Assembly: GCA_016784425.1 (NCBI GenBank)
Contig: JADHUQ010000003.1
Location: 1 to 37,372 of the forward strand
DNA from: Candidatus Delongbacteria bacterium
GTDB taxonomy: Bacteria; CAIWAD01; BS150m-G50
Reading direction: 5' to 3'
Length of the DNA stretch: 37,372 bases
Positions within the stretch are counted from its first letter, which is position 1. Each line of letters starts with the position of its first letter. Below are positions 26,901 to 30,673 of this stretch, piece by piece. Position numbers and translations under genes: made by a program. Under the pieces are notes generated by a model. The model had not been told where the DNA came from. It made no database searches and saw nothing but the letters and a program-made list of their open reading frames with translations.

Positions 26901-27295
26901 GTGCTGTCCTTATCGAGATACTCCAACCGGACCAGGGTATCACTCATGACAGTTCGAATAATCAACTGGACCGGCTCTGTAGCAGTCAGACGGGGTTGAA
27001 AACCGGCGCTTTGCCAGCTGGCAGCCAGAAAAGGGGTTTCCGCGGAGGGATAGGTAGCGTCATGGTAGATATATTCTTTTGCTTTAACTGCAAGACTCAG
27101 CGATGACAAAAACAGTCCCGGGAGCAGGAGAAGCCAGAGCAATAAAGGATGACGACGAAGGCACTTCCGGAAGTGTCGCCTGCAGACAGGTTCTGGTATT
27201 GGTAATTGTGTTGCTCGCATATGAACTAGAGCTGTGCAGCGGAAGTCGGCGATACCTGCTCTGGTATTTATTGCTCCGGTTTCCTCATCGCACAC
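20969..27295 (-). CDS. sprA: SprA-like giant outer-membrane protein (type IX secretion translocon family)
   Basis: 2108 aa; FFGDGRIGLDATGNININGGFRKEKRERQDSYTNQANNTNFNMDMQQRFTIVGKIGQKVDINIDQDTDNTFDWQNSLRLTYTGTEDEIIKSISAGNVSLSLPG is characteristic of SprA N-terminal repeats; C-terminal half is beta-strand rich. Signal peptide RRHPLLLWLLLLPGLFLSSLSLAVKA. Start is GTG 27295 (SD GAGAAGGA) or ATG 27220. Confidence 0.85.
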   Translation of the reverse strand: MCDEETGAINTRAGIADFRCTALVHMRATQLPIPEPVCRRHFRKCLRRHPLLLWLLLLPGLFLSSLSLAVKAKEYIYHDATYPSAETPFLAASWQSAGFQPRLTATEPVQLIIRTVMSDTLVRLEYLDKDSTFQYVIFLTTEAYYERMLLHHAVQQLRHEMLRTKNQVQQRAGGALKIDIPFKVRNKTFRKFFGDGRIGLDATGNININGGFRKEKRERQDSYTNQANNTNFNMDMQQRFTIVGKIGQKVDINIDQDTDNTFDWQNSLRLTYTGTEDEIIKSISAGNVSLSLPGADFVTFSGRNSGLFGLKTVMQFGPLNMTAIMSVEHGENQSQTFTGGQSEQKSQIFPTQFISDRYFFLSHSYRIAYPVYTDRWEHLVNANSRVDFVEMYISSASGDENLDIYEEGEDTPIYTNQPMRRLSDSEYQRNDDLGYILINSYLRPNDILAVSFKNKLGVEFPSPALYGDNAVYILRDSHQDPATPHWDLMLRNKYQVATAGKSIDDLNFAIRRYTTGSSDPDHQGGVPYIEILHLDNENTSGQQSPDNKIDSRWIDTNTGIISFPSLEPFGQQDAYVIVADSTLQTNFNEADTLETIYNIPTTHNDFQRLSQRFYMETSVLTLSKVYDLGWNVIEGSETVKLNGQKLQRDKDYTIDYVAGIVTILTSEADNPGASLEITYQNHEMISIEKKTIMGVRGQYNFDEASYLGATVLYLNQQIQEDKVRIGNEPMRNLVLDLNGALEFHPRFLTRMIDSIPLVEAEQESEISIEGEIARVIPNPNPLNNPATGDNNGVAYLDDFESIKREQDLGMRSGAWFISSSPAHTLTGDRGIATAYSPRQRVPKQEIWEEYDSGNLQNDDLQILQMDFYPLLYETGEQGQEIPEGGSWGGFYHDFRGANPDQSNTKYIELMVRSSGDRSGLIHIELGEISEDVIPNGQLDTEDRIEPALVNVGNGLLDEGEDIGIDGRAGEDPPWPGTAAMAHWSGDSTAMVAEFGSFYDFWDINGNNRKEALEPWSRDDWQYRDESNGQWFKGLENNGADAATYLPDTEDRNNNGVLDTIENYYSYTLSTDPASPWSRYQVSQNSYGWTLYRIPLKEYEIAWNNPTFQNIRGVRIWFEGFHQSTSLQLASFMLVGNEWREIYPVTASGDTLAYGNVAVINTHENSDYEPPAGVQGHRDAITGAYQKEQSLVMQLDELPADSTFWIYKILNDRVRLTDYNRLKMFIRGGSELREQVFPDSVLEIRLRLASTEQDYYEYHRYLTAGWQLNNMDIIFEEITDLEEFSRSSKDQPDPEKPKQISDGGYVLVKGNPSLNDVSFLYLGVTNHDAVANSEAVYFNELRVSDVKREVGQAQRVAVNLRLSDFMTLYGRLEKRDSEFHTIEQRMGTGDNTTSEVANSTIHLDKFLPRPWRTNIPLSLSSNRSVSSPKYFPGDDRLVPDNPPEEILNRRHTLNGSISFSKTGSENPWLSHTLDKLSVSYDVSQTYVSNDQIAADTTRSEQISTSYSNSPNWRHELPLFNWTEGMPLLGGLRNINFRYFPTRLGVSASTSWTENMRYNRNNTTSENHTYTMSRRFEYSLSPFRSFSLSYNRSYQSDLYFRLRDLYDTTDSTTYHYEDAATDLFAQDRSIQQSANLKFQPSFLNWLRPDFNYSTQYSWNRTLADPRKGVDLGSQNTLTGNGTLKPQDIFAWLLQVPKAGRSGSSRRNNRPPAQDERSQAGGGSRGSEGEAADSASVAEVIETPGVPLGERLDSAFRSARQGTYSVLSKLGDIRLTSTLTRTQSDPGYDIYDKGIGSGSRHASLAYQLGLESNPGSGREQLNSESGYIFNPTSSITRGYGVTTQMKVTRDIDLDFQYDIDIQRGWGETESRQESWTGLPLYLLKENVGTDNEIPLVRIPDYQLRWNHLESLPWVSNICQSINLSHHYSGMVRRTFRDFGDYLGLNRLEYERNFNPLVGLNITWIGRFSTTASYNQRMSFGISEPGEMRDAEYSNTRDLSIATTYRLGRGTKLPFKLWFMKTGSLRNDVNFTMTYTRSNTSNRSSFNGVDEWSSENFNRNWTVRLETRYSFTPNVTGGIQYEFGQRLDNRDPSGRVSFQELRLNVNTNIVGR

Positions 27296-28284
27296 ATATC
27301 CTTCTCGTTCTTTCTGGATGGTCTGCTGCTGTTGCGGGCACGATAAATGATCTCCGGACGCCCGCTGGCAGGTATCACGACACGCATCAGGTCCGCGGCA
27401 AGAACTGCCCCGGGAAGTTCCTGTTCAAGCTGCTCCTGGATTACATTACCTCGATTCAGGTAACGGGAGCTGACATGTGTGAGTATCAGATCTCTTACGC
27501 CAGCCTCCCTGGCAACCTGAACGGCGTCACTCACAGTTGAGTGCTGGGTTCGACGGGCGTTCTTGCGGTCGTCATTGTCATATGTACTTTCATGGATCAG
27601 AATATCAGCCTTGCGGGCAAGATCGACTGAGGCTGTTGTGTAAGTTGAGTCGGTAATGTAGACGATTTTCCGACCTGGCAGTGGCGGCGTGACCAGATCA
27701 CCGCTGCTGATAATCCTGCCATCCTTAAGGGTGATATCCCTGCCCTCTTTCAGCAGACGACGCTCCGGTCCCTCCGGAATACCTAACTCGGCTGCCAGCG
27801 CTGCGTTGAGTCGCCCGGGACGCAATTTCTCGACCAGCGAATATGCCAGTGTGTAAATGCGGTGTCGCACCCGCACTGCCTCCAGCCAGTACTCCGTAGT
27901 TTCAAGAATTGTCTGCGGTTCTTTGCCAATCGTCAGTTCATGAATTTTCAGGGGGTAATTAAAATCGGTTTCAGATATCCGTTTCATGAAACGTACATAT
28001 TCGGCGATTCCGGGCGGACCAAAAATCTGAAGCGGTTCTTCCCGTTTGTTCAGTTGGAATGAGGTCAGCAAACCGATCAATCCGTAGAAGTGATCGCCGT
28101 GCAGGTGGGTGATGAGAATCTTCCTGATTCGTGACCGCTTCAAGGGACTGCGTATAATCTGATGTTGCGTCCCCTCACCGCAATCAAAGAGCAGGACTTC
28201 TCTCTCCCTCTTGCAGGCGAGGGCGGCCACGTTTCGCTCAAAAGTCGGGGTCGCCGAGCCGGTCCCCAGGAAGACTAATTCCAT
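27268..28284 (-). CDS. rnz: Ribonuclease Z
   Basis: 338 aa; MELVFLGTGSATPTFERNVAALAC, LITHLHGDHFYGLIGLL, ILIHESTYDNDDRKNA, HSTVSDAVQVAREAGVRDLILTHVSSRY. Confidence 0.95.
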   Translation of the reverse strand: MELVFLGTGSATPTFERNVAALACKREREVLLFDCGEGTQHQIIRSPLKRSRIRKILITHLHGDHFYGLIGLLTSFQLNKREEPLQIFGPPGIAEYVRFMKRISETDFNYPLKIHELTIGKEPQTILETTEYWLEAVRVRHRIYTLAYSLVEKLRPGRLNAALAAELGIPEGPERRLLKEGRDITLKDGRIISSGDLVTPPLPGRKIVYITDSTYTTASVDLARKADILIHESTYDNDDRKNARRTQHSTVSDAVQVAREAGVRDLILTHVSSRYLNRGNVIQEQLEQELPGAVLAADLMRVVIPASGRPEIIYRARNSSRPSRKNEKDMCAMRKPEQ

Positions 28285-28750
28285 ATGGATAAGTTAAGTC
28301 CTTATAGTATTGCTACAGATGAATGACCGAAATCAGGAAGACATTCTATAGCAATAGTAGTTACCGCGGCTTATGACGTTTCCTAAAGGACATTCTTACA
28401 AGCTTACAAGCATCGGTAGAATAGTGATTTTTTAAGTAAATGAAAATGCGGGGTTATGCAAAAGAAATCGCCAGGTGAATTGATCCCGGCAGGGAGACAA
28501 GGCAGCAACCCAGTCTTTGACCGATGATGTTTCAGTCTCAAGATAGAGCTGCCTTCCAGGTGAACTTAATTACAGGAGAAACTCAAACCTCACTTATCTG
28601 CTCAAGTTTCCTACCTCTAAAAATGCGAACTTTGCCCCAGTTGTTATCGCAAAATCGTTGTGGAAGAGATGAGCCGGGGAGCCGTTACAGTAAAAGTAAT
28701 CTTGTCTTTCTGACAGTCCTGTAATGGTCTGCAACAGCTGTTCGGATTAC

Positions 28751-28785
28751 AAAAAAAAAGGCAAATGCGGGGAGCATTTGCCTTT
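28751..28785 (-). terminator. Strong intrinsic terminator (minus strand)
   Basis: 12-bp perfect stem AAAGGCAAATGC/GCATTTGCCTTT (28757-28768 / 28774-28785) with 5-nt loop TCCCC on minus strand, followed by six further Ts. Confidence 0.85.
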
Positions 28786-28843
28786 GGGAAGTGTACGAAA
28801 GACGATTCAACAATATTAGGGAGTGTAATATAGAAGCGTTCGC
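28751..28843 (-). ncRNA. Predicted ~90-nt small RNA from a sigma54 promoter
   Basis: Lies between the sigma54-like promoter (28854-28870) and the intrinsic terminator; no convincing ORF; contains ACACUCCC, ACACUUCCC and a UCCCC loop. TSS estimated about 12 nt after the -12 element. Confidence 0.5.
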
Positions 28844-28853
28844 TTATTAGCAA

Positions 28854-28870
28854 AGCAAACTGCGTGCCAA
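28854..28870 (-). promoter_or_regulatory. sigma54 (RpoN) promoter -24/-12
   Basis: Minus strand TTGGCACG-CAGT-TTGCT; GG-N10-GC spacing exact; matches consensus YTGGCACG-N4-TTGCW. Confidence 0.75.
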
Positions 28871-28944
28871 AATATTACACAGCTTCTTACACTGTTTATT
28901 ATTGATTTACATACATTATCATACTGGGGCTGATTCGTTGTTTT

Positions 28945-29077
28945 GGTGATATAAACCACTGCTGCAAAGAGTTGTTGCTCTAATGTAAGAAATACAGTAC
29001 AATTCAGCCATTTATGGAACGATAATGGATCAAACAGGAGTTGTTAGTCTTAACCACAATAATGGTTTATATCAACC
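28945..29077. repeat. Pair of 12-bp inverted repeats (candidate regulator binding sites)
   Basis: TGATATAAACCA (28947-28958) and its exact reverse complement TGGTTTATATCA (29063-29074), extended as GGT(T)GATATAAACCA. Confidence 0.6.
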
Positions 29078-29206
29078 GTTCATCAAAAACCAGATAATCC
29101 TGTTCATTTTGACCGGAGCACGCAATTTCACCACCTCATGCTGAAGAAGAAATTCTTGTAGAAGTGTACAAAGAGGTATAACTTTGCTGGAAATGAGGAG
29201 GCAATT

Positions 29207-30673
29207 ATGCGTTTAGTCACGATCGCTGTTTTCCTGGGGTGCTCGCTGGTAACCGGTTGGGCACAGGGGAATTCTCCGGTAGAACCTGCGGCGGAGGGAT
29301 CTACACAACCCTTTCATCTGTCTGTTGGTGTCGGCGCTGTGACAATGGACGGAGAAACATATCAGCAGATATCGCTTCGCCCTGAGATTCCTCTGGGTAA
29401 GTTTGGAATCGGTCTTGATATCACCATTTTCTTTGATGCAGATGGTAATATACGCAGCAAGGATTGGGATGAGCCGGCTGATTTACTGGACAAGATCCGC
29501 TACCTGCGTTATGGCCACCCCGGGGAGCAACTCTATATCCGTGCCGGAGCCCTGGATAATGTTACCCTCGGCTACGGCATCCTGATGAAACACTATTCCA
29601 ACTCAATTGATTACCCTTCAGTCAGAAGACTGGGTGCAAATTTTCAGGTGCGGGGGGCCGGTTTTCAGCTGGAGGGTATGTTCAACGATTTTCGGGAATT
29701 GACTGAACCTGGTCTGCTCGGTGTCCGGATGAGTCGGCCGCTACTCTGGGGTTTCACCGCCGGTGCCTCTATTGTAGCTGACGGCAACCAGTACGCCAAT
29801 CTGGTAGACGAGGACAACGATGATGTGCCGGATGAGCTCGATCGTTTTCCTGGTGAAAATGACACGGAAGTATACAGCTGGCTGGCGGCACTGTACCAGA
29901 GCAATCAGCTTGCCTACGATGGTTTAAGGGGTCAATACCCCGAGTGGCCGGAAGATCCGACCACCGCCACACCCGACTATACACCGGGCAAAGATCCGGT
30001 TACCGCAGTCGCCTTCGATCTCGGCTATCCCCTGCTGGGTAATAAATTACTCCTCTATGCCCAGGGTGCGCACTTTGTGGCGCATGGTTTTGGCATTGCA
30101 GCCCCAGGTGTAGTTTTTCAACCGGTCAATTCCCTGAGTATGGGTGTTGAATACCGATCCTACACCGACGAGTTCATCCCTGAGTTTTTCGATAGAACTT
30201 ATGAGCTCAATCGTTATTCCGTGGTGGATGTTAATGGTCAGGCAGCACTCAGGTCACGCGAATCATATCTGTTGGCTAACGCAAAGGCAGCTCGAGGTGT
30301 TTACGCAAGTGTCAATTTCCAGCTGCTGAGTCTGGTGGATGGTACCCTGGCGTACACCAGCATGCATCCGGTGGCTGAAGGGGATCAGACCAATACAATA
30401 TACGGTTCGCTAGGGCTTAATATGGCGCGTGTCCCCAAACTGACGGAGCTTTCCGCCTATTATTATCAGGCAAACGTGAAGAAGTTGTTCATACTGGAGC
30501 CAAACGCGTTACCTATCTGGGGTTACAAGATCGGTTACGAGATAACCAGTGGTGTCAATCTGCTCCTGAACTACCGTTATACCTATCAGGATCTTGACGG
30601 TGACGGTATAATCAGCGGAACTGCTGAACAGGTAAAGACATTTTCCATCGAAACATATTTCACGGTGCGGTAG
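29207..30673 (+). CDS. Outer-membrane/periplasmic beta-rich protein with Asp-rich calcium-binding-like loops
   Basis: 488 aa; signal peptide MRLVTIAVFLGCSLVTGWAQG; loops DEDNDDVPDELDRFP and DLDGDGII; SD GAGGAGG upstream. Confidence 0.75.
   Translation: MRLVTIAVFLGCSLVTGWAQGNSPVEPAAEGSTQPFHLSVGVGAVTMDGETYQQISLRPEIPLGKFGIGLDITIFFDADGNIRSKDWDEPADLLDKIRYLRYGHPGEQLYIRAGALDNVTLGYGILMKHYSNSIDYPSVRRLGANFQVRGAGFQLEGMFNDFRELTEPGLLGVRMSRPLLWGFTAGASIVADGNQYANLVDEDNDDVPDELDRFPGENDTEVYSWLAALYQSNQLAYDGLRGQYPEWPEDPTTATPDYTPGKDPVTAVAFDLGYPLLGNKLLLYAQGAHFVAHGFGIAAPGVVFQPVNSLSMGVEYRSYTDEFIPEFFDRTYELNRYSVVDVNGQAALRSRESYLLANAKAARGVYASVNFQLLSLVDGTLAYTSMHPVAEGDQTNTIYGSLGLNMARVPKLTELSAYYYQANVKKLFILEPNALPIWGYKIGYEITSGVNLLLNYRYTYQDLDGDGIISGTAEQVKTFSIETYFTVR

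Follow-up and report, generated by a model that had tools for sequence, protein, structure and literature searches.

The 922-bp gap between the rnz gene (27268-28284, minus strand) and a divergently oriented gene (29207-30673) rather likely contains a free-standing gene for a sigma54-dependent, Hfq-independent small RNA (sRNA) that probably pairs with Shine-Dalgarno regions; its transcription, the identity of its enhancer-binding protein (bEBP), its pairing and its targets are points that we infer from the features listed in Table 1. The window, i.e. the whole stretch of DNA that was analysed, is one entire contig (C149, 37 kb) of genome G000, which has a size of 1.94 Mb and is 67% complete. 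Four genomes of the same class (G001 to G004), all from another family, were used for the comparison within the class.

A free-standing, RpoN-dependent RNA gene had been proposed in the first-pass annotation of this DNA, and at the level of the sequence this is supported by the promoter, the terminator and the presence of rpoN and bEBP genes in the genome.

Table 1. Positions of the features in the window and of the related class non-coding RNA (ncRNA) in the comparison genomes.
Feature	Position	Strand	Basis
Sigma54 -24/-12 promoter element TGGCACG-CAGT-TTGC	28855..28869	-	sequence; chance expectation
Predicted small RNA, no ORF, 93-95 nt, predicted +1 at about 28843-28845	28751..28845	-	sequence and fold prediction
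5'-terminal AGCGAA region (AAGCGAA from 28845), 10 nt past TTGC	28840..28845	-	comparison of sigma54-like sites
UCCC motif 1, in CACUCCC, predicted unpaired in hairpin loop	28819..28822	-	fold prediction
UCCC motif 2, in GUACACUUCCC, predicted unpaired in linker ahead of terminator	28786..28789	-	fold prediction
UCCC motif 3, terminator loop UCCCC	28770..28773	-	fold prediction
Intrinsic terminator: 12-bp perfect stem, loop TCCCC, T9 tract	28751..28785	-	strict search and shuffles
Promoter-flanking 9-bp inverted repeat GTGTAATAT / ATATTACAC	28823..28880 (arms 28880-28872, 28831-28823)		repeat search
12-nt inverted repeat, proximal copy TGATATAAACCA, at about -105; speculative enhancer (UAS) candidate	28947..28958		
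12-nt inverted repeat, distal copy TGGTTTATATCA (inside GGTTTATATCAACC dyad), at about -225; speculative enhancer (UAS) candidate	29063..29074		
Weak candidate target: GAAGTGTAC-AAAGA within the divergent gene's leader, complementary to UCUUU(C)GUACACUUC of the sRNA	29161..29174	+	duplex prediction
Class ncRNA in G004	L079:2157-2349	+	
Class ncRNA in G003	L110:783-974	-	
Class ncRNA in G001	L149:1501-1692	-	
Class ncRNA in G002	L151:1451-1656	-	

Promoter and terminator upstream of rnz

On the minus strand positions 28870-28855 read TTGGCACG-CAGT-TTGC and form a perfect -24/-12 element with GG at 28868-28867 and GC at 28856-28855, the exact N10 spacing placing the transcription start near 28843-28845. 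Rereading the strand reproduced the previously claimed match to the RpoN consensus with GG-N10-GC spacing in a non-coding region. The site is one of five exact matches to TGGCACGN4TTGC in the genome. Its putative terminator, previously described as a 12-bp stem-loop with a U tract, was recovered with the 12-bp stem, the loop TCCCC and a T9 tract. It starts 70 nt past the promoter on the same strand, with the stem-loop spanning 28785-28757 and the nine T spanning 28759-28751. According to a strict definition it is the sole terminator of such strength on both strands of the 37-kb window, and none of 4000 shuffled 200-nt stretches contained a comparable one.

The combined observation of promoter and terminator is confirmed as real and far above chance. 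A fortuitous promoter look-alike followed by an isolated terminator, with no sRNA being made, has to be weighed against the following numbers. For a genome of this size, base composition predicts roughly one exact site (an estimate based on the 11 defined bases), and of the five that occur, one (L003) falls inside an ORF. However, according to a dinucleotide Markov model the expectation amounts to 3e-4 for the 922-bp gap and 0.025 for the window as a whole, and to meet such a site together with the contig's best terminator, 70 nt away on the same strand, would be far rarer. Since the neighbouring gene diverges, there is also no other upstream gene that needs a terminator. We regard such a coincidence as very improbable.

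The product of rnz contains metallo-beta-lactamase domains, and a sprA-like gene (SprA_N) follows on the same strand without a gap. This arrangement would also fit an attenuated leader of rnz-sprA, in which transcription starts at the sigma54 promoter, usually stops at the terminator and continues into rnz and sprA, a type IX secretion gene, when a signal permits it. Between the terminator and rnz the minus strand yielded no sigma70-like promoter, and many sigma54 sites of the genome precede genes for exported proteins, both of which would be in line with this scenario. It nevertheless seems unlikely, as there is no antiterminator partner (the longest complement to a terminator arm within the 60-nt leader comprises 4 nt), the terminator is unusually strong, and no good sigma54 site on the same strand lies upstream of rnz in any of the four relatives. 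Moreover, the terminator ends 467 nt ahead of the rnz start at 28284, in agreement with the earlier value of about 465 nt. The earlier view that the RNA is not a leader of rnz is accordingly favoured over the leader model.

Further upstream the two copies of a 12-nt inverted repeat are 100% complementary to each other and lie 104 nt apart. Their location at about -105 and -225 is enhancer-like, and we speculate that they may serve as bEBP enhancer sites. The repeats were absent upstream of the other sigma54 sites and are confined to this locus. A search with the enhancer dyad GGTTKATATMAACC gave many matches, none of them near other sigma54 sites, and the matches near the bEBP locus L035 fall within coding sequence.

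Predicted RNA and possible targets

The interval between the predicted start and the terminator contains no credible ORF, as had been stated before, and no ATG. The predicted RNA of 94 nt folds into a weak 5' domain followed by the terminator, and its folding z-score of -6.3 is mainly owing to the latter. The repeated UCCC motifs noted in the first-pass annotation are present in three copies (P = 0.015 in mononucleotide shuffles), and each of them is predicted to be unpaired with a probability of about 1.0 for all 5' ends from 28846 to 28841. Their description as single-stranded has to be qualified, since motif 1 lies within a weak hairpin loop and motif 3 forms the loop of the terminator.

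This layout resembles that of LhrC1-5 of Listeria monocytogenes, in which three redundant UCCC-type motifs are distributed over a stem-loop, a single-stranded linker and the terminator loop (PMC4132741). In LhrC each of these motifs is able to contact the Shine-Dalgarno region of lapB, and its action does not require Hfq (PMC4132741). RsaE/RoxS, SprD and FsrA are UCCC-motif RNAs that can be grouped with LhrC as near systems. In contrast to the RNA of the window, which has a sigma54 promoter and occurs as a single copy, LhrC1-5 are multicopy RNAs of a Gram-positive bacterium under control of the LisRK two-component system, and no sequence relation was found based on Rfam. With respect to its promoter the window RNA is similar to Qrr1 (PMC10162802), GlmY/GlmZ (PMC3844500) and CrcZ/CrcY (PMC6292655), which are likewise short RNA genes with a -24/-12 promoter that needs a bEBP and an intrinsic terminator. 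However, these RNAs belong to Proteobacteria, another phylum, and act together with Hfq or RapZ or titrate Hfq-Crc, whereas no Hfq was found in the genome of the window. A search of the window RNA against Rfam (including Qrr, GlmY/Z, CrcZ, LhrC and RsaE) produced no match at the gathering score and nothing relevant at E <= 10.

A trans-acting sRNA pairing with Shine-Dalgarno regions is the interpretation which we infer, and it gains strength from the LhrC-like layout and from the C-rich loops of an RNA present throughout the class (see below). The sigma54 polymerase would occupy positions 28869-28855 and start at about 28844 once an ATP-driven enhancer-binding protein acts, perhaps from the inverted repeats about 105 and 225 bp upstream, and the intrinsic terminator would end the resulting RNA after about 94 nt. 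Through its three exposed UCCC patches the RNA would make redundant contacts to G-rich Shine-Dalgarno regions, and this pairing would keep several mRNAs from being translated, independently of Hfq as in the case of LhrC. As most sigma54 sites in the genome lie ahead of genes whose products are exported or belong to the envelope, the RNA would represent the repressing arm of this regulon.

Alternatively, the repeated UCCC/ACACUYCC motifs could titrate an RNA-binding protein instead of forming base pairs. The motifs are repeated, alike and predicted to be unpaired, sigma54-dependent sponges are known from CrcZ/CrcY, which titrate Hfq-Crc (PMC6292655), and the idea works without Hfq. On the other hand, the copies number only three and all differ in length, no UCCC-binding protein is known in the lineage and Hfq was not found, so that a function as protein sponge appears improbable.

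Regarding potential targets of the predicted sRNA, duplex predictions against 141 leaders with two energy schemes revealed no outstanding candidate. The leader of the divergent gene ranked 4 to 9 (shuffle P 0.005-0.07) and is only a lead. The product of this gene, a protein of 488 aa without any Pfam domain, is presumably an outer-membrane protein, judging from its sequence. It is conceivable that the RNA acts as a specific antisense-like regulator of this gene by pairing of UCUUU(C)GUACACUUC with its 5' leader, given that the duplex comprises 14 pairs with one bulge and reached shuffle P values of 0.005-0.008 with unrestricted duplexes. When loops were restricted, however, the leader ranked ninth of 141 (P 0.03-0.07). 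The pairing site may furthermore lie upstream of the gene's own transcription start, and the adjacency of rnz and the outer-membrane gene is not kept among the class relatives, as followed by synteny via either gene. We consider this role quite improbable.

The relatives have a small coiled-coil-like ORF (RRFKMHKRTLEARLQAVREERDDLR) ahead of the outer-membrane-protein gene, and this ORF has a sigma54 promoter to itself (L049:780-1140, with counterparts in L048 and L050). A gene encoding a protein 43% identical to the outer-membrane protein of the window was detected in a MAG labelled Thiomargarita, a gammaproteobacterium (L053:5908-7338), where it sits in a neighbourhood unrelated to that of the window; this suggests either lateral transfer or a binning error.

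Sigma54 in the host genome and its relatives

A check for rpoN and bEBPs, which had been recommended earlier, was positive: the genome contains rpoN and eleven strong as well as two weak matches to Sigma54_activat. Sites with at most one mismatch from TGGCACGN4TTGC are present in fourfold excess (57 versus 14 in the reversed control) and the consensus is therefore in use in this genome. Among about 100 sigma54 sites inspected in five genomes the window site alone lacks an ORF and is followed by a strong terminator within 100 nt, while many of the others precede ORFs or fall within long frames.

Genes behind sigma54 sites of the host genome are predicted to encode C25 gingipain-like and C10 peptidases, an S41 protease, a VWA/VIT protein, a DUF2807 protein, an outer-membrane efflux protein (OEP) and a flagellar rod protein; these sites in front of exported or envelope genes are located in L016, L084, L014, L005, L098, L099 and L100. 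Sigma54 may hence control genes for secreted proteins in this lineage, which agrees with a published view that sigma54 controls the exterior of bacteria (PMC3162934) and makes envelope targets a natural first guess for the RNA. Several class genomes furthermore encode small proteins of 35-50 aa ending in a membrane-like SSPxFLL... stretch (e.g. MEKIFEVHSFDLGNSPAIRQMARRVAFHSNLLISSPVFLILLLVLCLFGM) directly behind sigma54 sites, as observed in L079:1571-1723 (+) and near sites in L110, L078 and L059.

No match to Hfq was obtained in the five class genomes with a search that was positive in control genomes, a result that is weak for the host genome of the window, being only 67% complete.

Sigma54-dependent sRNAs and UCCC regulators (PMC4132741) are each known already. 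The papers searched contained no precedent for their combination, a sigma54-dependent sRNA with a UCCC layout, in an uncultured lineage without detectable Hfq. The sigma54-dependent sRNAs in these papers come from Proteobacteria, and most of them are linked to Hfq or RapZ. The case of the window suggests that bEBP-gated riboregulation is wider than known and able to run without Hfq.

A conserved sigma54-associated RNA in the class

The ORF-less sigma54 sites of the relatives brought to light a different putatively sigma54-driven ncRNA of about 195 nt, which lacks an ORF as well and is present in all four same-class genomes. Its promoter is kept in each of them with a perfect or near-perfect sigma54 match. 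According to RNAalifold it consists of a 14-bp closing stem, a hairpin with a C5 loop, a third hairpin and a terminator; it also exhibits several unpaired C-rich (C5) motifs and an invariant 25-nt block, ACACCACCGTTTGATTTTGCTAATTC. Two-sided compensatory changes were detected in 7 of 48 pairs, and the C5-loop hairpin shows compensatory changes; for four sequences this covariation is modest but consistent. A covariance model (R1) found one strong match (152-219 bits) in each of the four genomes and no match at E <= 10 across the host genome of the window, and no Rfam family matched. The class ncRNA appears to be a new conserved structured RNA with modest covariation support, and it would link sigma54 in this lineage to post-transcriptional control. 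In G004 the gene for a protein of the SSPxFLL type is located about 0.6 kb ahead of it.

The class ncRNA shares with the window RNA the sigma54 promoter, the register of RGCGAA, unpaired C-rich motifs, the terminator and the lack of an ORF, but differs in its length of about 195 nt, its 14-bp closing stem and the ACACCACCGTTTGATTTTGCTAATTC block, which the window RNA does not possess. The hexamer [AG]GCGAA exactly 10 nt past TTGC occurs in five of 135 distinct sigma54-like sites, namely those of the four class ncRNAs and of the window; the chance value of about 5e-4 per site has to be discounted, since the test was done after the match had been noticed. Within 28000-29300 the best match of R1 covers 28845-28758, restricted to the ends of the model and with a score of 7.8 bits (rough local E-value 0.0085). 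In a gapped alignment the similarity between the window RNA and the class ncRNA was not exceptional compared to 98 other sigma54 sites and homology is therefore not claimed; a distant kinship is suggestive only. Searches for a DNA homologue of the window RNA in 97 genomes found none, and within the class merely pieces at chance level were obtained at E <= 10.

It is possible, though doubtful, that the class carries a lineage of sigma54-dependent, Hfq-independent RNAs characterised by an RGCGAA start and exposed C-rich loops, in which the window RNA would be a stripped-down member of 94 nt and the 195-nt form a new structured family, both jointly acting as the repressing arm of a sigma54 regulon of exported and envelope proteins.

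The inverted repeat flanking the window promoter was also considered as a sign of kinship to the class ncRNAs and was rejected: the spacing is similar to that of CCCATTCG..CGAATGGG, but the register is 8-11 bp off. The two arms of the CCCATTCG / CGAATGGG repeat, separated by 35-38 nt, lie on either side of the class ncRNA's sigma54 promoter in all four genomes (L079:2088-2175 and the corresponding positions in L110, L149 and L151). As its upstream arm is not transcribed, this repeat may represent the site of a regulator.
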